NCBI RefSeq assembly: GCF_026241135.1
Contig: NZ_JAPFGA010000005.1
Span: 62,001-126,000, forward strand
Reading direction: 5' to 3'
From: Galbibacter kalidii
Lineage (GTDB): Bacteria; Bacteroidota; Bacteroidia; Flavobacteriales; Flavobacteriaceae
DNA length: 64,000 bases
The notes below the pieces were generated by a model. That model worked only from the letters and a program-made list of their open reading frames with translations, did no database searches and was not told the origin of the DNA. This document shows, piece after piece, positions 51,050 through 62,479 of the stretch. Made by a program: the position numbers and the translations under genes. How positions within the stretch are numbered: position 1 is the first letter of the stretch; each line of letters starts with the position of its first letter.

Positions 51050-53218
51050 TTAAAAATCAAACCTGTAATTCATCTTAAAAGCCACGCCCCAATTAGTCCG
51101 GGAAATAGCATCGCTATAATTATCGGTAACCACCAAATAAATATACGAAAGTGGTTTATATTCCCATTGCAATCTGCTATTGATATTGAAATTGTCTACT
51201 TGGGTACTGTACTGAACATAGGTGGTCCAGTTTAGGCGGTTATTGAAAAACACTTCTCCCGTAAAACGTGCCAAATGAAAGGTTTTATTTCCTAATTCAT
51301 TTAAATCCAGTGAATTGATTTCGTATGAAGCTTCCAGATTGGCAAAAGGTAATAACCGATAGGTCAGGCTGGCAAATGCCGCTGAATTTTTTCCACTATA
51401 ATATTCCCCGTGGTGGACGTATCCTCTATAAACAAACTTTTTGTTGGTTACCGAATTGTACCCTAGTCTACCCCTGAAGAATTGATATGTGTCAGGCATT
51501 AAAACATTGCCATTTCTTAAGGGATCAAAGGCGTACTTCAGGTTTATATAATCGTGATAAGCACTGAAATAAACAGCGGACAGGTCCTTAAAAAAAACGG
51601 CAGTATTGTAAAAGGTAGAAGACTGTGTCACCGTTCCGTCGTCATCCCAATAGGTGTCGTTTAAAAAATTAACATAGCGATAGGAATTAACAGTCTTCGA
51701 ATTTTCAGGATATTTGGTCAGCACAGCTCCGGTTGAAAATTGGGTATATCCCTCACGTACCACCACATCGTTTAAAGCATCGTAATTATTTAACCGGGGG
51801 ATAAAGCCCGCATCTGCTAGATAGTTTTTGCCAACATTCTTTACCGAAGCATTCCAAGAAGCCCCTCGCTTGTTGTACCAAATTTCGGCATTGTAGAAGC
51901 CGTTGTCTTTTGAAACACCATCGTTAAAACTCTTTGCGTAATTTACCAAGCCGGTCCACTTGTTGTTGCTCGATTTGTAGTTGAGATTAACGCCTGTTAC
52001 CCGGTTGTACTCATCTATAAAATTAAATTTATCGGTTTCCTGCCTGTTGATTAAAAAACCGGTAGCCGTAAAGTTTTTGGAGAGTTGGTGTTCTGCAACC
52101 AAAGCACTATAATTTTGAGATGCGACGGCTCCCTCTTCTTCCGTTTGTACATTTAAGACTCCTAATCGTGTTTTTGGCGAAATATTCCCGGATAACTTCA
52201 AGCCGAATTGAATATCGGTACCGGCACCTATCTGTCTCGAATAAAAGGGGTTGACTTCATCGGTGCCTAAATTTGAGAACAGGTCTGAATTTTCTAAAAA
52301 GAAATTGCGCCGTTCGGGGAAGAAGACGGCAAAACGCGTTAAATTGGTCACCTGCTGATCCACATCTATTTGGGAAAAATCCGGGTTTACGGTGGCGTCC
52401 AGTTTTAATGAGGAGTTCAGGTTGTACTGCACATCCAAACTTGGTTTTACCGTGGTTGTTTCGGTATCATTTACCACATCATTTTGATGGTTTACAGTAA
52501 CCGATGGCGTTACCGCAAAGCGGGAAGCGGAGATATCGGGTAAATTTTCCACCTCAAATGCTTCGGTAAACCGAAGGTCGAAAAGCCTATAATTTCGTTT
52601 TACATTTTTAAAAATGGTCCACGAATTGTTCTTGATATCCCGCACATAAAACTGTATCCCGAAAACAGGATTGTTTTTATTGTAATTCAATGCTTTTAGC
52701 GGGATTTCCATTTCATATTTCTTTAAATTTCCTGCTGTGGAAGTGTTGGTTTTCCAAACAACATTCCAACTGGTATTTATGCCATAGCTGTCGCCGTCGC
52801 CCACACGCTCTATCAGTCCATCCACCTGTGCATTGCCCGCATTAACTGCAAAATAGTAGGCATTTTGTCGCTGGTTTTGTGTATCCAGAATAAGCACAAA
52901 CGCATCACTGAAACCTATTGAGTTATCCCTTTTTAAGGAACTTATCTGCGTTTTTAAAGTACTGTCCTTATAAATTGCGCTGATATACAAATACTCCCCA
53001 TTGTGAAACAATTTTACCGACGTTTGATTTTCGGCCAGGCCTTCATCGGTAGGGAGGTGATTGTAAAACCCGGTATATTCCGGTAATTGTTGCCAGACAG
53101 ATTCGTTGAGATTCCCGTCTATTGTAATAGGACTGTCAGAAAATGGGATTGTAGCGGTGTTTTGTGCATACCCGAAAAACATAATACAGCCCGAGAAAAA
53201 TGTCAAAAAAAGCCTCAT
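51050..53218 (-). CDS. DUF5916 outer-membrane protein with N-terminal CBM9-like domain
   Basis: A 722-residue exported protein with a signal peptide (FFSGCIMFFGYAQ). A carbohydrate-binding family 9-like domain follows (about 20-210; ITIDGNLNESVWQQLP, NAYYFAVNAGNAQVDGLI, EMEIPLKALNY). The rest is a DUF5916 domain with many beta-strands (FAVFFPERRNFFLENSDLF, FYSRQIGAGTDI) ending in an aromatic residue, like a barrel in the outer membrane. The ligand is unknown. It lies directly after an NTF2-like gene on the same strand. Confidence 0.88.
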   Translation of the reverse strand: MRLFLTFFSGCIMFFGYAQNTATIPFSDSPITIDGNLNESVWQQLPEYTGFYNHLPTDEGLAENQTSVKLFHNGEYLYISAIYKDSTLKTQISSLKRDNSIGFSDAFVLILDTQNQRQNAYYFAVNAGNAQVDGLIERVGDGDSYGINTSWNVVWKTNTSTAGNLKKYEMEIPLKALNYNKNNPVFGIQFYVRDIKNNSWTIFKNVKRNYRLFDLRFTEAFEVENLPDISASRFAVTPSVTVNHQNDVVNDTETTTVKPSLDVQYNLNSSLKLDATVNPDFSQIDVDQQVTNLTRFAVFFPERRNFFLENSDLFSNLGTDEVNPFYSRQIGAGTDIQFGLKLSGNISPKTRLGVLNVQTEEEGAVASQNYSALVAEHQLSKNFTATGFLINRQETDKFNFIDEYNRVTGVNLNYKSSNNKWTGLVNYAKSFNDGVSKDNGFYNAEIWYNKRGASWNASVKNVGKNYLADAGFIPRLNNYDALNDVVVREGYTQFSTGAVLTKYPENSKTVNSYRYVNFLNDTYWDDDGTVTQSSTFYNTAVFFKDLSAVYFSAYHDYINLKYAFDPLRNGNVLMPDTYQFFRGRLGYNSVTNKKFVYRGYVHHGEYYSGKNSAAFASLTYRLLPFANLEASYEINSLDLNELGNKTFHLARFTGEVFFNNRLNWTTYVQYSTQVDNFNINSRLQWEYKPLSYIYLVVTDNYSDAISRTNWGVAFKMNYRFDF

Positions 53219-53219
53219 T

Positions 53220-53822
53220 TTAGTTCGCTTGTTTTACAAGGGTTTGTGTAGCTGTCTTACTGATAATCTTCCAATCGTCCCCGATTTTCTTTAACAAAAA
53301 GAGGTCGATAAACCGCATTTTTCTTTCAGGGATTAAAATTTCGGCTATTGCCGTGGCAATATCACCCGTAATATCTATGTCCAAAATTTTTCCTCTTCTA
53401 CCATTGAATGTACCGGGAGTTCCCTTAAAAAAAGTTAGGTATTCTTTGGGGGTAAGCACTTTAAACTCCTTTTTAATAGTCAGGTATAAAGTCGCATTTT
53501 TGGCAAATGCGCTTTCCAGCATATCCAGCTTGTTGTACGAGCTGCCTTCTATATAACCTTGAAGTGTTTTTTCAATTAAATCCTTATCTGTATACGTATA
53601 GGTGGAAGTTTTGGGTGCATTTAAGCTTTCATAATAAAGCTTGCTGTCGCTCACAAAGCTTTTGTCATAGTTAATGACTTTCCGTTCATTCCTGTTGCCG
53701 TATATTCGTATCAGCAATTCTTGTTTTACGGCTTCAATACTGTCATTTTTATGGGTTTGGGAAATTCCTGTAGCAGGAAAACATAAGAGTGTGGCAAATA
53801 CTCCAAAAAATAAATGTTTCAT
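53220..53822 (-). CDS. NTF2-like (lumazine-binding type) secreted protein
   Basis: A 200-residue exported protein with a signal peptide (MKHLFFGVFATLLCFPATG). The C-terminal 130 residues have an NTF2-like fold: LIEKTLQGYIEGSSYNKLDMLESAFAKNATLYLT, IATAIAEILIPERKM and FIDLFLLKKIGDDWKIISK. The function is not known. The start at 53822 is set by the signal peptide. The palindrome at 53899-53914 lies 46 bases upstream of its candidate -7 box. The DUF5916 gene follows after one base, so they form one unit. Confidence 0.85.
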   Translation of the reverse strand: MKHLFFGVFATLLCFPATGISQTHKNDSIEAVKQELLIRIYGNRNERKVINYDKSFVSDSKLYYESLNAPKTSTYTYTDKDLIEKTLQGYIEGSSYNKLDMLESAFAKNATLYLTIKKEFKVLTPKEYLTFFKGTPGTFNGRRGKILDIDITGDIATAIAEILIPERKMRFIDLFLLKKIGDDWKIISKTATQTLVKQAN

Positions 53823-53845
53823 TTTGTTGATGTTTAAATTCCTAG

Positions 53846-53853
53846 CAAACATC
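53846..53853 (-). promoter_or_regulatory. Candidate -7 box of the NTF2/DUF5916 unit
   Basis: On the minus strand GATGTTTG matches TAnnTTTG except at the first base. It is exactly 46 bases from the palindrome at 53899-53914, the same distance as in two other units of this locus. Confidence 0.5.
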
Positions 53854-53898
53854 TTTAAACAAAATGAAAATGGTGTGTTAGGTTATAATGGAAGTGTA

Positions 53899-53914
53899 CA
53901 GATTTATAAATCTG
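53899..53914. promoter_or_regulatory. Palindromic operator candidate, copy 1
   Basis: CAGATTTATAAATCTG is a perfect 16-base palindrome, about 84 bases from the NTF2 start at 53822. Identical copies are at 55089-55104 and 58755-58770. Confidence 0.75.
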
Positions 53915-53993
53915 AATAAAAAAACGAGGAAATTGCTTTTTAAAAGCCACTTAAATTTTGCCGAATCAATACCTTTGTATTCAAAATACCTTT

Positions 53994-55052
53994 ATGGATC
54001 CGGAACATCAATTGTTGTTTTTCTTTAGTGCTATCGGTGCTTTTAATGGTCTCTTTTTGAGCATCTATTTTGCTTTTTTTGTAAAGCATAGAAATAAAGC
54101 AAATTACTTTCTTTCAGCATTGATGCTTGTTATTAGTGTGAGGATTATAAAATCTGTTTTTTTGTTTTTCTACCCTTCCATTTCAGAACTGTTTATACAT
54201 ATTGGATTAGTAGCTTGTGCACTTATAGGGCCATTTCTGTATCTATATGTAAAAAACACCACTTCCCGTAAAAACTACCGCAGCCGGCATTGGCTCTATC
54301 ATATTGTGCCCACGGTATTGGCTATGATAATAATTGAATATCTCTATCCATACAAACAGTACAGGTCATATTGGCTATTATCTGCTACATTCTCTATTGG
54401 CAAGTTTTTATACGCACAGTGGATCATTTATATCCTCCTTTCGGGAATCGTTATAAAAGATGCTTTTGCCTCCCTCATTAAAAAAGGGAAGAAACTAACC
54501 GATGAAGAGATCTGGCTCATTAGCCTGGTAGTCGGAGTAGCGATCATCTGGATTGCGTACAACACAACGGGATATATTTCCTATCTTGCAGGGGCTTTAT
54601 CCTTTTCTTTTATCTTTTACCTGATGCTGCTTCTCTGGTTTTTTAAACGGAAAAAGGCCACTCCTTTCTTTTTTGCCGTCCAGACCAAATATGCCAATAA
54701 GAGAATTGAAGCTGATGAAGTCACCGGAATTCTCTCCAGATTACATACACTCTTTGAACAAAATGGGCTTTACAAAAAACCGGATTTAAAACTGGCAGAT
54801 ATCGCTGATGAGTTGGACATACCTTCTCATCAGTTGTCGCAATGTTTAAATGATAATCTGGGCAAGGGCTTTTCAACTTATATCAATGAGTATCGGGTAA
54901 AAGAAGCAGAAAAAATGTTGGTCTCCAACCATCACCTAACCGTAGAGGGCATAGGATACGAATGCGGATTTTCTTCAAAATCCACATTTTATTCGGCTTT
55001 TAAAAACATAAAAGGCACTACTCCTGCCAAATTTAAGAAAGAAAACACTTAG
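53994..55052 (+). CDS. Membrane-anchored AraC family regulator, paralogue 1
   Basis: A 352-residue regulator with about seven N-terminal membrane spans (residues 8-220) and a C-terminal AraC-type helix-turn-helix domain (about 245-350; LADIADELDIPSHQLSQCLN, INEYRVKEAEKML, IGYECGFSSKSTFYSAFK). The signal is probably sensed in or near the membrane. The start at 53994 gives MDPEHQLLFFF and fits a -7 box TACCTTTG at 53970-53977. A second paralogue (57672-58718) has an almost identical DNA-binding part. Confidence 0.88.
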   Translation: MDPEHQLLFFFSAIGAFNGLFLSIYFAFFVKHRNKANYFLSALMLVISVRIIKSVFLFFYPSISELFIHIGLVACALIGPFLYLYVKNTTSRKNYRSRHWLYHIVPTVLAMIIIEYLYPYKQYRSYWLLSATFSIGKFLYAQWIIYILLSGIVIKDAFASLIKKGKKLTDEEIWLISLVVGVAIIWIAYNTTGYISYLAGALSFSFIFYLMLLLWFFKRKKATPFFFAVQTKYANKRIEADEVTGILSRLHTLFEQNGLYKKPDLKLADIADELDIPSHQLSQCLNDNLGKGFSTYINEYRVKEAEKMLVSNHHLTVEGIGYECGFSSKSTFYSAFKNIKGTTPAKFKKENT

Positions 55053-55088
55053 TGTTGTATCAGGTTAAGATACCTTGTCGTTTTTCTT

Positions 55089-55104
55089 CAGATTTATAAA
55101 TCTG
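55089..55104. promoter_or_regulatory. Palindromic operator candidate, copy 2
   Basis: The same 16-base palindrome CAGATTTATAAATCTG, 46 bases upstream of TAATGTTG (55150-55157), a -7-like box for the TonB-type gene starting at 55186. Confidence 0.75.
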
Positions 55105-55185
55105 TATTTCTTTTCCGCTATTTTTTGTCGCTTTTAATGAATGTAATAGTAATGTTGTTGCTCCAAAAAAAGCAAAGAATATACT

Positions 55186-57573
55186 ATGAAAAACAGACAA
55201 AAAAATATTTTGTTATTCCTCCTATTACCATTATTTAGTTTCTCTCAGGTAAATATAACGGGAAGTGTAAAAGACGAATACAGTCCCATTGCCTATGCCA
55301 ATATTGTGCTTCAAGATACGGAAGGGCACCCAATAACCGGAGCAATTACCGATGAAAACGGAGACTTTAAAATTCAGGCAACTGAAGGTGAATATAGGTT
55401 AATTATCAGCTATTTAGGCTATGAAAATAACGAAAGGGATATTCTTCTGGAAAAGGATATCGCTGTTGGTACAATTGTATTGAAAGAGGACACTGGCCAA
55501 CTGGAGGAGGTAATCATTACCGCCAAAAAACCGTTGATTGTGCAAAAGGCAGACCGCTTGGTGTACAATGTGGAAAACAGTGTTTCGGCCATTGGGGGCG
55601 ATGCAATGCATGTTTTGGGTACAGCCCCGGGACTTATGGTCATCAATAACACCATAACGATGCTGGGCAAGGGCACGCCCCGAGTGATGATAGATGGACG
55701 AATGCTTGAATTAACGGGAGATGAATTAGTGGGTTTTCTGGGTTCCTTATCTGCCGACGATATCAAGAACGTTGAAATTATCGCTACTCCACCGGCAAAA
55801 TACGAGGCCGAAGGCAGTGGCGGACTTGTTAATATTAACCTGAGAAAAGCCGCTCTGAACTCTTGGAAAAACACAATCACCACAGCCTATGATCAAAACA
55901 CATATAGTATTTTTTCGATTCGGAACAACTTTTTCTACAACAAAGATAAACTTCAGTTTTCCGCCGGTGTCGGAGGGAAAGTAGGGGATGTGAGACGAAT
56001 AGAACAGATAGATACAGAGTATCCCAATGGTCCCTGGGAGTTGGATATCGTCTCAAAAAACAGTAGGAACAACCTGTCCGGGCGTTTTAGTATAGATTAT
56101 GACCTAACAGACAACATTACCATAGGAGGCCAATATATGGGGGTTTACAACTATGGCGAGATACAATTAGATGCAAAAACAGATATTTTCAATACAGAAC
56201 ATCAACTGGAATCCATTCTCATTAACCCGATTGTTATTGATAGGGATAAGAAAAGTCATTCTGCAAATGCACACCTTATCGCTACCTTGGATACCATTGG
56301 CAGAAAATTATCTTTCGATGTTGACTATTTTACCTTTGATTCTGATATGGAAACCGACCTTTTTGCAGAGTCTTTTACGCCCGAAATGGAATTTATAGAG
56401 GTAGATATGGCTGCGAAAAACACGACAGACGTTACAATTAACAATGTTAGCTTCAAGACAGATATGGAACACCCCTTGGATTTTATAAACCTGTCGTATG
56501 GGGGCAAACTCAGTTTTATAAACACGCAGGCAGATGCTAAGTTTTTTAATACCATTACAGGGAATCCCATACTGGATCCGGATCAATCCAACGAGTTTGA
56601 ATATCAGGAAAACAATCAGGCTGTTTACGTTAACGGTTCCAAGAGCTTTAACGATAAATGGAGCCTGCAACTGGGGCTGCGGTATGAAGCAACACAAACG
56701 GAAGGCTATTCAAAAACGACAGGTGAAACCAATAAAAAAGAGTATGCAAAGCTGTTTTCCTCGTTTTATTTGATGTACAAAAAGAGCGATGACCATAGCT
56801 TTTCTTTTAATTATGGCAAACGGGTAAACCGCCCCCCATTTTGGATGTTGAACCCCTACCGTATCTATACAAGCAGTAATACCTATGCTGAAGGCAATCC
56901 GTTTTTGCAACCTTCGTTTTCCGATAATTTTGAATTTACTTATATGTATAACAGTAAATTGAGAACCAATGTGTTCTTAAACATATTAAACGACGGCTAT
57001 GGAACTATTTTTACTTCAGACCCTGAAGAAAATATACAAACAATAACGAGGGAAAATTATTACAAACAATATCAATATGGAATATCAGAAAGTTACACGG
57101 CCGATATAACCAGCTGGTGGCAAAGCCGAAATGCAATCAATCTTACAAACCGTGAAACAAAAATTTATGACGTTATAGATGCCACTCCCTTAAACGGTAT
57201 GCAAATTTATTTTTCATCAAACAATACCATTTCACTATTCACATCTACCAAGCTACAGTTAGACTATTGGTACAGCTCTCCCTTTAAAACGGGGCTGTTT
57301 GAAATCGGCAAGCCACAATCCAGCTTTAACGTAGGGATAAAACAAAGTATATTGGGGGACAACCTTCAATTGGTGCTTCTTTTTAATGATGTTTTCAATA
57401 GGTCGCAATTACGGGAATATAACTCTGCGGTAAATGGAATAAAACAGTCGTACTACGAAGATAACAGCAACCGTTTTTTCCGTTTTTCATTGACCTATAC
57501 CTTTGGAAATGATGACACCAGTGTTAAACAAAGAGATTTTGGAAATACAGAAGAGCAGCAGAGAGCCAATTAA
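55186..57573 (+). CDS. TonB-dependent receptor-like outer-membrane barrel protein
   Basis: A 795-residue exported protein. A signal peptide (LLFLLLPLFSFS) is followed by a carboxypeptidase-regulatory-like domain (about 25-100; VNITGSVKDEYSPIAYANIVL), a plug-like region (EEVIITAKKPLIVQKADRLV, RVMIDGRMLELTGDELVGFL) and a large barrel ending QRDFGNTEEQQRAN. It is the OMP_b-brl family type and lacks a SusD partner here. The cargo is unknown. It lies between two AraC paralogues and has the shared palindrome upstream. Confidence 0.9.
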   Translation: MKNRQKNILLFLLLPLFSFSQVNITGSVKDEYSPIAYANIVLQDTEGHPITGAITDENGDFKIQATEGEYRLIISYLGYENNERDILLEKDIAVGTIVLKEDTGQLEEVIITAKKPLIVQKADRLVYNVENSVSAIGGDAMHVLGTAPGLMVINNTITMLGKGTPRVMIDGRMLELTGDELVGFLGSLSADDIKNVEIIATPPAKYEAEGSGGLVNINLRKAALNSWKNTITTAYDQNTYSIFSIRNNFFYNKDKLQFSAGVGGKVGDVRRIEQIDTEYPNGPWELDIVSKNSRNNLSGRFSIDYDLTDNITIGGQYMGVYNYGEIQLDAKTDIFNTEHQLESILINPIVIDRDKKSHSANAHLIATLDTIGRKLSFDVDYFTFDSDMETDLFAESFTPEMEFIEVDMAAKNTTDVTINNVSFKTDMEHPLDFINLSYGGKLSFINTQADAKFFNTITGNPILDPDQSNEFEYQENNQAVYVNGSKSFNDKWSLQLGLRYEATQTEGYSKTTGETNKKEYAKLFSSFYLMYKKSDDHSFSFNYGKRVNRPPFWMLNPYRIYTSSNTYAEGNPFLQPSFSDNFEFTYMYNSKLRTNVFLNILNDGYGTIFTSDPEENIQTITRENYYKQYQYGISESYTADITSWWQSRNAINLTNRETKIYDVIDATPLNGMQIYFSSNNTISLFTSTKLQLDYWYSSPFKTGLFEIGKPQSSFNVGIKQSILGDNLQLVLLFNDVFNRSQLREYNSAVNGIKQSYYEDNSNRFFRFSLTYTFGNDDTSVKQRDFGNTEEQQRAN

Positions 57574-57647
57574 AATCATGTATGCTTTTTAAACGTATTG
57601 TGGAATGTGGATAGGGAATGAAGTATAGAATTGAATTCCTGTTTTAG

Positions 57648-57655
57648 TATATTTG
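57648..57655 (+). promoter_or_regulatory. -7 box of AraC paralogue 2
   Basis: TATATTTG fits TAnnTTTG and lies 17 bases before the ATG at 57672. Confidence 0.5.
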
Positions 57656-57671
57656 AGTTCTAAATATTCTT

Positions 57672-58718
57672 ATGGAACCGGAACATCAACTCTTATTTTT
57701 CTTTAGTGCCATTGGTGCTTTTAACGGGCTTGTTTTGAGCATCTATTTTGCCTTTTTTGTAAAGCACAGGAACAAGGCCAATTATTTTCTTTCGGCATTG
57801 ATGCTGGTGCTTAGTATAAGGATCATAAAGTCTGTTTTTTTCTTTTTTTATCCTTCCCTTTCCGAGCTGTTTATACATATAGGCTTAGTTGCCTGTGCAC
57901 TCATTGGGCCATTTTTGTATCTGTACGTAAAAAATACCACGTCCCGTAAAAACTTTCGCAACCGGTATTGGCTCTATCATATTGTGCCCACGGTATTGGT
58001 CATGATACTAATTGAATACCTCTATCCGTATAGGCAGTACAGGGCATTCTGGCCATTTTTTATCAGTAAGGTTTTATATATGCAGTGGCTGGTTTATATT
58101 ATTCTTTCGGGAATCGTTATAAAAAATGCTTTTGCCTCCCTCATTAAAAAAGGGAAGAAAGTGACCGATGAAGAAATCTGGCTCATCAGCTTGGTGGTCG
58201 GAGTGGCCATCATCTGGATTGCTTACAAAACATCAGGATATACCTCATATATTGTAGGTGCCTTATCGTTTTCTTTTATATTTTACCTGATACTGCTTCT
58301 CTGGTTCTTTAAAAGAAGGAAAACTACGCCTTTTTTCTTTGCTGAACAAACCAAATATGCCAATAAGAAAATTAAAGCAAATGAAGCCACCGGAATTCTC
58401 TCCAGATTACATACACTCTTTGAACAAAATGGGCTTTACAAAAAACCGGATTTAAAACTGGCAGATATCGCTGACGAGTTGGACATACCTTCTCATCAGT
58501 TGTCGCAATGTTTAAATGATAATCTGGGCAAGGGCTTTTCAACTTTTATCAATGAGTATCGGGTAAAAGAAGCAGAAAAAATGCTGTTATCTAACCATCA
58601 CCTTACCGTAGAGGCCATTGGCCATGAATGCGGTTTCAAATCGAACACCACATTTTATTTGGCCTTTAAAAACCTTACAGGCACTACGCCTGCAAAATTT
58701 AAGAAAGAAAACACTTAG
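57672..58718 (+). CDS. Membrane-anchored AraC family regulator, paralogue 2
   Basis: A 348-residue paralogue of the 53994 gene, with the same membrane domain order (start MEPEHQLLFFFSAIGAFNGL) and AraC-type helix-turn-helix domain. Over 195 bases (58389-58583 against 54723-54917) I find only two differences, while the membrane part has many. The DNA after the stop, up to the palindrome, is also nearly the same. This suggests gene conversion or strong selection on DNA binding. It is followed by a second NTF2-like gene. Confidence 0.88.
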   Translation: MEPEHQLLFFFSAIGAFNGLVLSIYFAFFVKHRNKANYFLSALMLVLSIRIIKSVFFFFYPSLSELFIHIGLVACALIGPFLYLYVKNTTSRKNFRNRYWLYHIVPTVLVMILIEYLYPYRQYRAFWPFFISKVLYMQWLVYIILSGIVIKNAFASLIKKGKKVTDEEIWLISLVVGVAIIWIAYKTSGYTSYIVGALSFSFIFYLILLLWFFKRRKTTPFFFAEQTKYANKKIKANEATGILSRLHTLFEQNGLYKKPDLKLADIADELDIPSHQLSQCLNDNLGKGFSTFINEYRVKEAEKMLLSNHHLTVEAIGHECGFKSNTTFYLAFKNLTGTTPAKFKKENT

Positions 58719-58754
58719 TGTTGTATCAGGTTAAGATACTTTGTTGTTTTTCTT

Positions 58755-58770
58755 CAGATTTATAAATCTG
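58755..58770. promoter_or_regulatory. Palindromic operator candidate, copy 3
   Basis: CAGATTTATAAATCTG again, 46 bases upstream of TAATGTTG (58816-58823), with a TTG 19 bases before that box, ahead of the NTF2-like gene at 58848. Confidence 0.75.
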
Positions 58771-58847
58771 TATTTCTTCTTCATTATTTTTTATTGCTTT
58801 TTACTAGCATCCTTGTAATGTTGCACATAGTTTTAAATACATAGAAA

Positions 58848-59276
58848 ATGAAATACATTACCACCTTAATTATCGCCTTTACTTTTTTCAGTACCCTAAA
58901 CTTGGGGGCACAAACTGAAAAAGAACTTATTACCAAGACACTAATGGACTATATTGAAGGGACAGCAAATGGAGAGCCGGAAAGACTAAAAAATGCTTTT
59001 CATAAAGATTTGAACCTTTATCACGTAACAAATGACAGTATAGTTGTTTGGTCAGGCCAGAAATATATTAGTAACGTTAAGTTAGGTGAAAAAAGTAACC
59101 GGATAGGTAAAATTATTTCTATTGATTATAAGAACAATGCTGCAAGTGCGAAAATAGAAGTGGATATGCCGGATAAAAAAAGAGTTTATACCGATTATTT
59201 ACTCCTGCTAAAAACCGGGGGAAATTGGCAAATAATTCATAAGTCATTTACGTATGTTAAGTATCCCGGCAATTAA
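58848..59276 (+). CDS. NTF2-like (lumazine-binding type) secreted protein, second copy
   Basis: A 142-residue exported protein with a signal peptide (MKYITTLIIAFTFFSTLNLG). The NTF2-like domain has LITKTLMDYIEGTANGEPERLKNAFHKDLNLYHV, GKIISIDYKNNAASAKIEV and YTDYLLLLKTGGNWQIIHK. It is related to the protein encoded at 53220-53822 but shorter. A candidate palindromic operator lies upstream. The ligand is unknown. Confidence 0.85.
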   Translation: MKYITTLIIAFTFFSTLNLGAQTEKELITKTLMDYIEGTANGEPERLKNAFHKDLNLYHVTNDSIVVWSGQKYISNVKLGEKSNRIGKIISIDYKNNAASAKIEVDMPDKKRVYTDYLLLLKTGGNWQIIHKSFTYVKYPGN

Positions 59277-59496
59277 AACCTGACGACTGACGAATTAGCA
59301 ATCTGCCTGAAATGCTCGTAAAAAGGGCATATACCGATTTTCCTATCCGCAGGCTCAGCATCAGCACCAACAATCCAAAAAAGAAGTTTTGAGCTCGTTT
59401 TTGTTTGCTGAAAAATAAAAGGTACAAACTGACCAAGAACCCGTTAAAAACCCCAAGGGCACCAAAGAAGAACAAAACTGGGTTTTCGAAAGTCAT
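59257..59496 (-). pseudogene. Truncated copy of the membrane domain of an AraC regulator
   Basis: The first 54 codons (MTFENPVLFFFGALGVFNGF and following spans) match the N-terminal membrane domain of the two AraC paralogues nearby. After that the sequence changes to unrelated residues and stops, overlapping the end of the NTF2-like gene by 20 bases. The helix-turn-helix part is missing. It is probably the remnant of a third paralogue on the opposite strand. Confidence 0.75.
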
Positions 59497-59764: not shown

Positions 59765-59795
59765 CTTCGTTTTCAACTTTTTGTTGATTTATTCG

Positions 59796-59869
59796 TGACC
59801 TCGCCAGGATTCAAACCTGGAACCTTCTGAGCCGTAATCAGATGCGCTATTCAGTTGCGCCACGAGGCC
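59796..59869 (-). tRNA. tRNA-Arg(ACG)
   Basis: Acceptor GGCCTCG pairs with CGAGGTC (one G-T pair). Anticodon loop TTACGGC with ACG, T loop TTTGAAT, discriminator A. ACG needs inosine modification to read CGC/CGA. Confidence 0.95.
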
Positions 59870-60003: not shown

Positions 60004-60636
60004 ATGCTGGATACCATCAAAGAGAAATTGAACTACCTTCTAGATGATACGATTATTGAAGAATTGTTAAGAATCGGAAGAGTGAAGTCTTTTTATAAAG
60101 ACGATATCATTATGGATATTGGTCAAAAATTAGGTTTCATTCCTTTACTTTTAGAAGGCAGCATTAAGGTGCTTCGTGAAGATGGTAATGGACATGAGAT
60201 ACTACTTTATTTTCTAGAAGAGGGAGATACTTGTGCTATGTCGCTCACCAGTTGTCTCAATCATTCAAAAAGTAAAATAAGAGCCATAGCAGCAGATGAT
60301 GTCAAACTCTTTATGATTCCGTCTGAAAAAATGGAAGAATGGTTCCATACTAATAAAAGCTGGAGAAGTTTTATCTTGGAAAGCTACCAAGTTCGTTTTG
60401 ATGAAATGATAGAAACCATAGACGCCTTGGCGTTCCTGAAAATGGATGAGCGCTTGGAAAAATATCTTACAGATAAGGTTAAGTTAAACGGTAATTGGAC
60501 GCTAAACATTACTCACCAAGAGATTGCAGACGATTTGAATACCTCAAGAGTGGTGGTTTCAAGATTACTTAAAAAACTAGAAAACAACCAGCTGATCAAA
60601 CTTCACAGAAATAAAATTGAAGTACTCAACTCTTGA
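60004..60636 (+). CDS. Crp/Fnr family transcriptional regulator
   Basis: A 210-residue regulator with an N-terminal cNMP-binding-like barrel (about 25-115) and a C-terminal winged helix (about 150-205; LNITHQEIADDLNTSRVVVSRLLKKL). Cys77 and Cys84 lie in GDTCAMSLTSCLNHSKSK, within the sensor domain. The gene is just upstream of sulfur-handling genes on the same strand, so a role as a sulfide or persulfide sensor is a reasonable guess. Confidence 0.92.
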   Translation: MLDTIKEKLNYLLDDTIIEELLRIGRVKSFYKDDIIMDIGQKLGFIPLLLEGSIKVLREDGNGHEILLYFLEEGDTCAMSLTSCLNHSKSKIRAIAADDVKLFMIPSEKMEEWFHTNKSWRSFILESYQVRFDEMIETIDALAFLKMDERLEKYLTDKVKLNGNWTLNITHQEIADDLNTSRVVVSRLLKKLENNQLIKLHRNKIEVLNS

Positions 60637-60681
60637 GTAACATTCATTACATAACATTTCATACAGCTCCATTACCTTTGC
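60637..60681 (+). promoter_or_regulatory. Candidate Crp/Fnr site and -7 box before the YeeE genes
   Basis: GTAACATTCATTAC (60637-60650) has GTAA/TTAC half-sites and lies 24 bases before TACCTTTG (60674-60681). This puts its centre near -43, the position used by class II activators. A similar site is at 62502-62515. Confidence 0.5.
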
Positions 60682-60705
60682 ACTCTTGATATAAAACAAA
60701 TAATT

Positions 60706-61266
60706 ATGGAGTTTATCTTAGATCCGTGGCCTTGGTATGTGTCAGGCCCTTTGATTGCTATGGTCATGTTTTTGCTTATTTACTTCGGAAAAACTTTTGG
60801 CATGTCTTCCAATCTTCGGACTTTCTGTGCGATAGGCGGCGCAGGAAAGAAGAGTGATTTTTTCAATTTTAAGTGGCAAGAGCAAAAATGGAATCTTATG
60901 GTTGTCCTTGGTGCTGTTATTGGCGGTTTTATTGCGCATTTCTTCTTGTCTAATCCTACTAATATTGATCTCAATTCCAATACTGTTCAGATATTACAAT
61001 CTTTTGGCTTTGAAAACACCGGGAAAACATTGCTTCCACAGGAAATATACGGTTGGGATGCTGTTTTAAGTCTGAAAGGCTTGCTTATTTTGATCGTAGG
61101 CGGATTTTTGGTCGGTTTCGGAACACGATATGCCGGCGGATGTACTTCCGGACATGCCATTAGCGGACTTAGCAACTTGCAAATTCCGTCGCTTATTGCT
61201 GTTGTCGGTTTCTTTATCGGAGGCTTGATCATGACACACTTTATAATCCCCTTAATTTTTAAATAA
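60706..61266 (+). CDS. YeeE/YedE (TsuA-type) thiosulfate/sulfur transport protein, part 1
   Basis: A 186-residue membrane protein of the YeeE/YedE family with four or five spans. The conserved Cys is in GFGTRYAGGCTSGHAISGL. Full-length relatives import thiosulfate, moving sulfur along Cys residues; here the protein is a half-size form. The next gene overlaps its last base and codes for the partner half. Confidence 0.93.
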   Translation: MEFILDPWPWYVSGPLIAMVMFLLIYFGKTFGMSSNLRTFCAIGGAGKKSDFFNFKWQEQKWNLMVVLGAVIGGFIAHFFLSNPTNIDLNSNTVQILQSFGFENTGKTLLPQEIYGWDAVLSLKGLLILIVGGFLVGFGTRYAGGCTSGHAISGLSNLQIPSLIAVVGFFIGGLIMTHFIIPLIFK

Positions 61267-61679
61267 TGAAGTATCTAAAATTTATACTGACAGGTGTTTT
61301 CTTCGGAATTGTTCTCGTAAAATCGGAAGCGGTTTCGTGGTACAGGATTTTCGAAATGTTCCGTTTTGAATCTTTTCATATGTATGGAATTATCGGAACT
61401 GCCGTGATCACCGGAATCATTCTCGTTCAGCTTATCAAAAAAACAAACTTGAAAAGTATCGAAGGGACTCCAATTGCTATTCCTGATAAAAATAAAAGTA
61501 TCACCCGTTACCTGCTTGGCGGGTCGATCTTCGGACTCGGATGGGCATTAGCAGGAGCATGTCCGGGACCTATGTATATTTTGGTGGGAACAGGTGTTTT
61601 TTCAATGTTGATTGTCATTGCTGCGGCTGTTGCAGGAACTTTTGTTTACGGATTGTTGAAGAATAAACTTCCGCATTGA
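61266..61679 (+). CDS. YeeE/YedE-like (DUF6691) membrane protein, part 2
   Basis: A 137-residue membrane protein, four spans, with the conserved Cys in GLGWALAGACPGPMYILVGTG. It starts on the last base of the first YeeE gene and overlaps the next gene by four bases, so all three are translated together. The pair probably forms one transporter. Confidence 0.92.
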   Translation: MKYLKFILTGVFFGIVLVKSEAVSWYRIFEMFRFESFHMYGIIGTAVITGIILVQLIKKTNLKSIEGTPIAIPDKNKSITRYLLGGSIFGLGWALAGACPGPMYILVGTGVFSMLIVIAAAVAGTFVYGLLKNKLPH

Positions 61680-62479
61680 TGACATTTGAAACAACCATCG
61701 GATATGCAGGGGCACTTTTTATCGGACTTGTTCTAGGGCTTTTAGGCGGTGGGGGTTCTATTTTAACGGTTCCTTTGTTAGTCTATTTACTGGCATATAA
61801 CCCCGTTGTGGCTACCGCATATTCTCTTTTTGTAGTCGGGTCGTCTTCGCTAGTGGGGGCTTTTCAGAAATATAAAAAAGGTGTTGTCGATATTAAAATC
61901 GGATTGGCATTTTCCTTTCCTTCCTTTTTGGCAGTCTATCTTTCCAGACGTTTTCTTGTTCCGTGGATACCCGAGGAATTGTTCAGACTTGGAACCTTTA
62001 CTTTTACCAAGGAAATCCTCATCATGACCTTTTTTGCTGTGATTATGTTTGTGGCAGCAGTATCCATGATCAAAAATCAAAAAAAGAAAAAGAAGGATCC
62101 AGATTACAAACAAGCCTACGTAAAAACTTTTGTTCAGGGGCTTGCGATTGGGACCATTACCGGACTTATAGGTGCGGGAGGTGGATTTCTCTATGTCCCG
62201 GCTTTGGTTTTATGGGCAAATCTTTCCATGAAGAAAGCTGTTGGAACCTCTTTAATTATTGTATGTATCAATTCCCTGATTGGGTTTATAGGTGATATAC
62301 AAACATTGGATATTGAATGGGGATTTTTACTGACTTTTTCTGCGATAACCATCCTTGGGATACTGATTGGCGGACAATTATCACAGTATATTCCTAATAA
62401 AGCTTTGAAAAAAGGTTTTGGGTATTTGATATTGCTGATGAGTTTTTATATTCTGATGAAGGAACTATATCACTTTTAG
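61676..62479 (+). CDS. TauE/SafE family sulfite/sulfonate exporter
   Basis: A 267-residue inner-membrane protein with about eight spans in two repeats; each has a family motif (LVLGLLGGGGSILTVPLLVYL and ITGLIGAGGGFLYVPALVLW). TauE/SafE proteins export sulfite, sulfoacetate or related anions. With the YeeE pair and persulfide dioxygenase nearby, sulfite export after sulfide oxidation is a plausible role. Confidence 0.92.
   Translation: MMTFETTIGYAGALFIGLVLGLLGGGGSILTVPLLVYLLAYNPVVATAYSLFVVGSSSLVGAFQKYKKGVVDIKIGLAFSFPSFLAVYLSRRFLVPWIPEELFRLGTFTFTKEILIMTFFAVIMFVAAVSMIKNQKKKKKDPDYKQAYVKTFVQGLAIGTITGLIGAGGGFLYVPALVLWANLSMKKAVGTSLIIVCINSLIGFIGDIQTLDIEWGFLLTFSAITILGILIGGQLSQYIPNKALKKGFGYLILLMSFYILMKELYHF

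Follow-up and report, generated by a model that had tools for sequence, protein, structure and literature searches.

The locus lies in a window of 64,000 nucleotides from Galbibacter kalidii (the whole stretch of DNA that was analysed) and combines two genes for AraC-type regulators with genes for NTF2-like, DUF5916 and TonB-type proteins and three copies of a 16-base palindrome, CAGATTTATAAATCTG. The features are:

51050..53218, minus strand: DUF5916 protein with an N-terminal CBM9-like domain (PF19313, E 4.2e-20; PF06452, E 3e-5)
53220..53822, minus strand: NTF2a, Lumazine_bd_2 (NTF2-like), with a signal-peptide-like start (PF12893, E 8.7e-17)
53846..53853, minus strand: -7-like box GATGTTTG of the NTF2a-DUF5916 unit, 45 bp after the palindrome
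53883-53916: whole 34-bp site, copy 1, with second box CATTATAA
53899..53914, minus strand: palindrome copy 1 (exact match), core of the predicted operator of the NTF2a-DUF5916 unit
53994..55052, plus strand: AraC1, N-terminal hydrophobic domain and C-terminal AraC/HTH_18 DNA-binding domain (PF12833, E 7.1e-18)
55087-55120: whole site, copy 2, with degenerate box 2
55089..55104, plus strand: palindrome copy 2 (exact match), predicted operator of the TonB-type gene
55150..55157, plus strand: -7-like box TAATGTTG of the TonB-type gene, 45 bp after the palindrome
55186..57573, plus strand: TonB-type outer-membrane protein, CarbopepD_reg_2 and OMP_b-brl_3 (PF14905, E 1.2e-96)
57672..58718, plus strand: AraC2, tandem paralogue of AraC1 (86% amino-acid identity)
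58753-58786: whole site, copy 3 (covariance-model E 0.001)
58755..58770, plus strand: palindrome copy 3 (exact match), predicted operator of NTF2b
58816..58823, plus strand: -7-like box TAATGTTG of NTF2b, 45 bp after the palindrome
58848..59276, plus strand: NTF2b, Lumazine_bd_2 (NTF2-like), with a signal-peptide-like start (PF12893, E 5.2e-23)

The start of NTF2a was set at MKHLFFG by likeness to the L007 and L008 proteins; the first ATG of the open reading frame is at 53852. The DUF5916 gene follows NTF2a directly, and the two probably form one operon. AraC1 (352 aa) and AraC2 (348 aa) belong to the AraC/XylS family by their HTH_18/HTH_AraC domains (PF12833, E 7.1e-18 and 2.3e-17). N-terminal to the DNA-binding domain, the hydropathy profile of AraC1 has about seven segments within residues 5-219, as in a one-component regulator with a predicted membrane location. 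The AlphaFold model of AraC1 has helices at residues 3-222 at low confidence (membrane part low; mean pLDDT 63.7) and helices in the DNA-binding domain with block pLDDT of 77-92. A Pfam search of both regulators at E <= 0.001 reported only HTH_18 and HTH_AraC; a kinase or receiver domain, as expected of HTCS regulators, was therefore not found.

Exact matching placed the palindrome at 53899-53914, 55089-55104 and 58755-58770, just as originally predicted, and in a scan of the 4.66-Mb genome these were its only exact places, all at one locus. A reversed control pattern had no exact place genome-wide, against three for CAGATTTATAAATCTG; with up to two mismatches the palindrome occurred at seven places and the control at three. 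The stretches 53974-55135 and 57652-58801 are a duplication, 85.5% identical, which includes the AraC gene, the palindrome and 31 bp past the palindrome. Copies 2 and 3 are therefore of common descent, having been duplicated in tandem together with AraC, and taken by itself the window carries less weight as evidence than it seems to. Their place inside the duplication would suit a reading of all three copies as a mere by-product without function. However, copy 1 lies outside the duplication, and the conservation of the element across genera at fixed spacing contradicts this reading, to which we give almost no credence.

The original prediction took the bare 16-base palindrome as the element. 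The palindrome is real, but the site combines an inverted with a direct repeat: the palindrome forms the upstream part of a 34-bp site consisting of a 20-bp inverted repeat (approximately TYCNRRWTTATAAWTCYGRA) and a second TTATAA box 21 bp downstream, which repeats one half of the inverted repeat and had been missed. In 38 sites (all of the 49 loci except L054, L081, L008a, L068, L064, L088, L079, L009, L083, L077 and L048; the same set was used for the divergence tests below), a lag of 21 was the single direct-repeat peak, with an identity of 0.60; all other lags between 12 and 35 gave 0.15-0.39. The site thus has two similar half-sites in the same orientation, spaced by about 21 bp, on the upstream side of the promoter core, as AraC-type direct-repeat sites do. 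In the window, the second box is clear for copy 1 (NTF2a) and weak, degenerate or absent for copies 2 and 3.

A degenerate palindrome, used as the sole query in 397 genomes of the family, matched in 38 of them, close to the number for the reversed control pattern; eight of the places were at AraC loci (four in this genome and one each in G101, G153, G311 and G400). Because this query was too weak, the full 34-bp model was used. Between 45 bases before the AraC gene end and 120 after it, 40 of 49 AraC homologues have a site scoring at least 15 (leave-one-out). Seven have no convincing site in this stretch (L009, L048, L064, L077, L079, L081 and L083; at most 9.7), and the site overlaps the AraC end in L054 and L068. 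In a narrower stretch L008a scored only 0.9. For each of the 38 homologues scoring at least 16.2 in that narrower stretch, none of 200 shuffles (first-order Markov sequences, not exact shuffles) scored as high, and the best score on both strands of window positions 1-50000 was 7.1. The third intact AraC homologue of the genome, on contig C38 (39% identity), has a site variant 9 bases after its stop codon and 77 before the ATG of its target.

A covariance-model search gave matches in 31 of 38 AraC-bearing genomes (most of them training sites) and in none of 12 genomes that lack a strong match to AraC; each of the 41 matches, which fall at 39 distinct places, has such an AraC gene within about 3 kb. 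The best site of this genome is copy 1 (E 3.4e-4), itself among the 40 training sites, and the weakest of its four sites at AraC loci is copy 2 (E 0.07). Four weaker matches in this genome (E 0.31-8.1), with neither a flanking AraC gene nor a 5/6 -7 box at 44-46 bp, were set aside as chance. In all five AraC genomes outside the training set, the AraC gene or gene pair is followed by a site that has a -7-like box at 45-46 bp; four of these genomes share a genus with a training genome and one, G574, belongs to another family. A new match in G596 lies before an unrelated open reading frame and lacks a -7 box at 45 bp. The non-training genome G643 has a further site in trans, before a Lumazine-PfpI gene on a contig other than that of the membrane AraC pair, so the proposed 'self-contained' nature of the module mostly holds, with this one exception. 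The comparison of related genomes that the original prediction had called for came out in its favour: in several genera the site accompanies the membrane AraC subfamily and keeps a constant distance to the -7 box.

In Bacteroidota, the sigma-A promoter is TAnnTTTG at -12 to -5, according to the available text of PMC9723704, and each of the three -7-like boxes of the window has five of these six letters. They stand on the proper strand at the fixed spacing that had been predicted, but with 45 rather than exactly 46 bases between palindrome and box. From the palindrome to the ATG there are 76 bases for NTF2a (from the Met at 53822), 81 for the TonB-type gene and 77 for NTF2b; the earlier figure of about 84-90 fits when measured from the palindrome centre. 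Among 42 loci (the 49 less L054, L081, L008a, L068, L064, L088 and L079, a set used also for the distances and hairpins), 34 have a box with at least 5/6 letters starting 44-46 bp after the palindrome, and in 27 of 42 aligned sites it starts at exactly 45 bp. The -7 box was not used for finding the sites.

The palindrome lies 2-38 nt after the AraC stop codon (42 loci measured), where the AraC genes could also be expected to have a transcription terminator or a hairpin at their 3' end, and the arms of the inverted repeat co-vary on three of five measures (two were not above shuffles); the T-rich stretches after copies 2 and 3 in the window point the same way. However, 37 of 42 hairpins are weaker than -5 kcal/mol, and at least five T among the 8 nt that follow the repeat are present at only 7 of 42 loci, unlike the stable stem and T run of an intrinsic terminator. 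The distance to the next ATG (entered by hand) is tight, 65-92 at 35 of 42 loci, and uncorrelated with the distance to the AraC stop (r 0.07), and the -7 box has its fixed place after the palindrome. Copy 1, L008:7471-7486 and L088:6756 precede target genes without an adjoining AraC 3' end, and the trans site of G643 is on a different contig from the AraC pair. We consider a terminator very improbable.

The usual next gene in relatives encodes an NTF2-like and/or DJ-1/PfpI protein (Pfam scan of the 49 loci except L008a, L081 and L088). The 'outer-membrane response module' of the original prediction therefore describes part of these loci and not the usual target. Presence of the site follows the regulator: it was found at 15 of 16 target-gene homologues with a flanking membrane AraC gene (mostly training sites) and at none of 10 homologues without AraC in the flank, including two at 69% identity. 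To our knowledge a 20-bp inverted repeat is atypical of AraC-type sites, which would be explained if the site were the operator of another regulator and this one controlled the same genes by coincidence. This is contradicted by the linkage of the site to the AraC gene and not to the target alone. Scores at eleven further AraC-type loci of the genome do not exceed 14.3 (the value of L145), and the 21-bp direct-repeat period matches that of the AraC-type HTCS regulators in the available text of PMC3878776.

A further argument against another regulator comes from the co-variation of site and protein. Site distance correlates with the distance between DNA-binding domains (r = 0.64), and the partial correlation given the membrane domain is 0.50, a value reached in none of 1000 permutations, against 0.006 for site and membrane domain given the DNA-binding domain. 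A correlation with the DNA-binding domain is also present for control DNA adjoining the site (r 0.31, partial 0.19); shared ancestry therefore accounts for part of the co-variation. Taken with the linkage, these values make another regulator rather improbable. What is read directly from the genomes is the element with its spacing, its linkage to the AraC subfamily and its co-variation with that subfamily. A residue-by-base mutual information analysis of AraC and site was dropped, as it was dominated by ancestry and artefacts.

The AraC proteins might also bind the site and repress, with the inverted repeat holding a closed complex; repressors commonly use inverted repeats. However, the site lies upstream of the -7 region, not over it, at constant spacing, no -33 element is conserved at the promoters, and the -7 boxes frequently deviate by one letter. 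These are signs of activator dependence, and repression appears unlikely.

AraC/XylS-family activators bind direct-repeat sites upstream of the promoter core, as AraC does at araI1-I2. The regulators described here resemble them in the C-terminal HTH_18 domain and in the pair of direct half-sites, spaced by 21 bp, that immediately precedes the promoter core, but differ in having a multi-helix membrane N-terminus where those activators have a soluble ligand-binding domain, an upstream half extended into a 20-bp inverted repeat, and a Bacteroidota -7 promoter. In the available portions of PMC3878776 and PMC11253607, Bacteroides HTCS join a membrane-bound sensor and an AraC-type DNA-binding domain in one chain, and their direct-repeat motifs have a unit plus spacer of 20-21 bp (16+5, 12+9, 14+6). 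AraC1 and AraC2 share this one-chain arrangement and a direct repeat of similar period, whereas Pfam found no kinase or receiver domain in them, they are short (352 and 348 aa), and their targets are mostly NTF2/PfpI proteins. Saccharophagus degradans has membrane-bound one-component AraC-type regulators beside their presumed targets (PMC2386152, available part). These are alike in being one-component AraC-type proteins with membrane segments that adjoin presumed targets; they differ in the targets, which are polysaccharide enzymes, and in the number of membrane segments, two in one table row there against about seven here. The available part of that paper gave no DNA site for them.

We conclude that the 34-bp site is, with high probability, the operator of the adjoining membrane-anchored AraC regulators, through which they would activate the neighbouring genes. 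The idea that membrane AraC proteins drive these genes via the element, already part of the original prediction, is strongly supported by the comparison (subfamily linkage, 0/10 without AraC, co-variation). A membrane AraC regulator very probably binds the conserved site to control adjoining genes, and most likely a regulator of about seven helices activates adjacent NTF2-like, PfpI-like or outer-membrane genes. We infer binding by AraC, activation rather than repression, and membrane sensing. In the mechanism that we propose, the N-terminal domain of about seven helices would act as the sensor of a signal in or across the inner membrane. A pair of tethered DNA-binding domains would then occupy the direct repeat, whose halves lie at about -73/-63 and -52/-42 relative to the transcription start, and the bound regulators would activate a promoter without a conserved -33 element. 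In the window, this would switch on NTF2a-DUF5916, the TonB-type gene and NTF2b.

The literature searches made for this analysis gave no description of a group of membrane-tethered regulators with this DNA site. As a tentative suggestion, which we hold to be possible rather than probable, they may form a distinct class of one-chain membrane receptor/transcription factors, probably of Flavobacteriales, in which a seven-helix sensor is joined to an AraC domain reading a compound operator. Such proteins would act almost only on adjoining genes, because they are tied to the membrane, and would form a portable envelope-sensing cassette with the secreted NTF2-like or PfpI-like proteins and the outer-membrane receptors that they drive. 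If our reading is right, the DNA site of these regulators would be known to the base, together with predictions of the promoter geometry and the target genes, so that reporters could be used to test binding, activation and signal. They would offer a clean system for studying how a transcription factor that is bound to the membrane gets to its DNA, and for asking why its sites stay near the regulator's own gene.

The 16-mer CAGATTTATAAATCTG had been reported at three places in the window; exact matching confirmed all three and located it at no further place in the 4.66-Mb genome. The locus and its surroundings are as follows:

Window 53899-53914: palindrome copy 1, of the NTF2a-DUF5916 unit
Window 55089-55104: palindrome copy 2, of the TonB-type gene
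Window 58755-58770: palindrome copy 3, of NTF2b
Minus strand: DUF5916 and NTF2a (NTF2-like)
Plus strand: AraC1 (membrane AraC regulator), TonB-type gene, AraC2 (membrane AraC regulator), NTF2b (NTF2-like)
Window 59290-59496 (-): membrane AraC remnant (N-terminal 69 positions matched, E 4.1e-25), an 83-codon open frame convergent with NTF2b
Window 59795-59869 (-): tRNA-Arg (acg), just past the AraC locus
Window 60004-62479: Crp-like regulator, then three open reading frames resembling membrane proteins; adjoins the AraC locus and is apparently separate from it

AraC1 and AraC2 share 86% protein identity. Positions 53974-55135 match 57652-58801 at 85.5% of the DNA, a stretch spanning the palindrome and 31 bp beyond, and copies 2 and 3, both lying inside it, therefore derive from one ancestral copy. 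The reported fixed spacing is indeed constant, with a TAnnTTTG-like box (the -7 box) after all three copies, but it amounts to 45 bases and not 46.

A third intact AraC homologue, 39% identical and on another contig of the same genome, carries CAAATTTATAAATCCG 9 bases past its stop and 77 bases upstream of a Lumazine_bd_2-PfpI fusion gene. Scanning a genome collection gave two named relatives. In Sinomicrobium weinanense (80% AraC identity), the Lumazine-PfpI and AraC genes diverge with CGGATTTATAAATTCG between them, and behind a second AraC gene stands another near-copy of the palindrome; an Allomuricauda MAG showed no clear copy. When six AraC sequences were searched against 397 family genomes, 37 of these contained 46 homologues between them (E <= 1e-75); adding the two genes from Sinomicrobium and the one from Allomuricauda brought the loci examined to 49. 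The original prediction had proposed looking for the palindrome near membrane AraC genes of related genomes, and the site that contains it is present at most of these loci: the leave-one-out site score is at least 15 at the AraC gene end in 40 of the 49, including L054 and L068, where the site overlaps the AraC stop. At two loci (L008a and L088) the site lies elsewhere, ahead of an NTF2-like or Lumazine-PfpI gene, and at seven the best leave-one-out score is at most 9.7.

Alignment of 39 seed sites on the palindrome delimited a conserved stretch of 34 bp. It comprises a 20-bp inverted repeat followed by a second box (+22 to +32), and its T at -1 and its A at +18 hardly vary. Across 38 sites, identity between the first half-site and the DNA 21 bp downstream is 0.60, versus 0.15-0.39 at the remaining lags from 12 to 35; the box 2 variant is not predicted by the box 1 variant of the same promoter (0.598 versus a permuted mean of 0.593). 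In the inverted-repeat arms 81% of cells pair, against at most 54% when the arms are slid, and three of five covariation measures lie above all 500 shuffles, while the other two, which count pairs and types, fail to exceed the shuffles. The site 3' of AraC has a central GTATAC or TTATAC, not TTATAA, at L055, L057, L059, L061, L063 and L067, which suggests a subgroup with altered DNA preference.

The next ATG follows the element by 65-92 bases in 35 of 42 loci measured; the distance from AraC stop to element (2-38 bases; 42 loci) varies independently of it (r 0.07). A -7 box with at least five of six letters begins 45 bases past the element in 27 of 42 loci, and at 44-46 in 34. If this box is taken at -12 to -5 (PMC9723704), the half-sites would fall around -73/-63 and -52/-42. 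Among 38 sites there is no conserved -33 element.

Pfam domains of the next genes (46 of 49 scanned) were Lumazine_bd_2 (NTF2-like) in 30, DJ-1_PfpI in 23, beta-lactamase-like in 5, OMP_b-brl_3 in 2 and singles of other domains, some genes carrying two of these. By these counts, the window's NTF2 genes are thus usual targets and the TonB-type gene a rarer one. Many next genes have a signal-peptide-like start, judged by inspection of the sequence and not by a predictor. DUF5916 lies directly behind NTF2a and is probably on the same transcript.

Four comparative lines, namely genomes, targets, co-variation and new genomes, point to the membrane AraC as the putative binder. A covariance model of the 34-bp site matched (E <= 0.1) in 31 of 38 AraC-bearing genomes versus none of 12 lacking a strong AraC match. 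As read from coordinates, every one of the 41 matches (39 distinct places) falls at an AraC locus. Most of these sites had served to train the model, so their presence holds by construction; the lack of matches at other places does not, although the search, covering more than 40 genomes, applied stricter filters at the cost of weak matches. Among 26 Lumazine-PfpI target homologues, the site occurs in 15 of the 16 with a membrane AraC within the 1.5-kb flank (score at least 15.7; 8.2 in the sixteenth), most of the 15 being training sites as well. None of the ten homologues lacking a flanking AraC has it (best upstream score 0.4), including two at 69% identity, whose genomes hold, respectively, only a distant AraC relative elsewhere (E 2e-31) and none at E <= 1e-30. 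Site divergence follows that of the DNA-binding domain (r 0.64; partial 0.50 given the membrane domain) and not that of the membrane domain (partial 0.006); for control DNA against the DNA-binding domain the partial value is 0.19. Eleven further AraC-type loci in the genome that holds the window reach a site score of 14.3 at most. Site, geometry and putative partner can be read from sequence comparison.

When 395 genomes of the order were scanned, 13 had a match at E <= 0.02, eight of them new. In three of the eight the match is located after a membrane AraC, one of these belonging to another family; another three have no such AraC at E <= 1e-30, and their match is at the chance-expected level. 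In all five new AraC genomes the AraC gene or pair is followed by a site whose -7-like box stands at 45-46 bp, four of the five sharing a genus with a training genome. In genome G643, another of the eight, the operator stands ahead of a Lumazine-PfpI gene (L132, contig C33) and is followed at 46 bp by a perfect TAGCTTTG; the tandem membrane AraC pair (L175/L179) is on contig C8, followed by its own site and an open frame starting like an outer-membrane protein. The proposal of a regulon driven by the two membrane AraC proteins is supported as to the regulator by the four lines; the module would be mostly self-contained, the G643 site lying in trans. Genome G596 (L127, contig C1), the last of the eight, has a strong site (score 29.3) about 160 bp ahead of a large minus-strand ORF (446 codons or more) of a kind outside the usual targets, and no -7 box at 45 bp; this site may be a chance match or may mark an atypical target in trans.

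The AraC N-terminus is predicted to comprise about seven hydrophobic helices, in a region where the structure model is of low confidence. We infer that this region would sense a signal at the inner membrane, that sensing would let paired AraC domains occupy the direct repeat, and that the pair would activate a promoter that lacks a conserved -33 element. The upstream inverted repeat may let the pair face either direction, which at 53899 could also reach the AraC1 promoter. The box of this promoter, TACCTTTG (window 53970-53977, +), matches the full -7 consensus and lies 55 bp from copy 1 on its other side, about one helical turn beyond the usual 45. AraC1 autoregulation from the shared divergent site is possible and would be local at best, because the other AraC genes have no copy within two mismatches in the 300 bp upstream.

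The 21-bp lag compares with the direct repeats of 20-21-bp period described for AraC-type HTCS regulators of Bacteroides in PMC3878776, and membrane-bound AraC-type factors are known in Saccharophagus (PMC2386152). The portions consulted of PMC11253607, PMC12125979 and PMC1183210 held no closer case. We found no description of the seven-helix AraC group, its site or the NTF2/PfpI link in the open-licence literature searched, which leaves most subscription journals outside.
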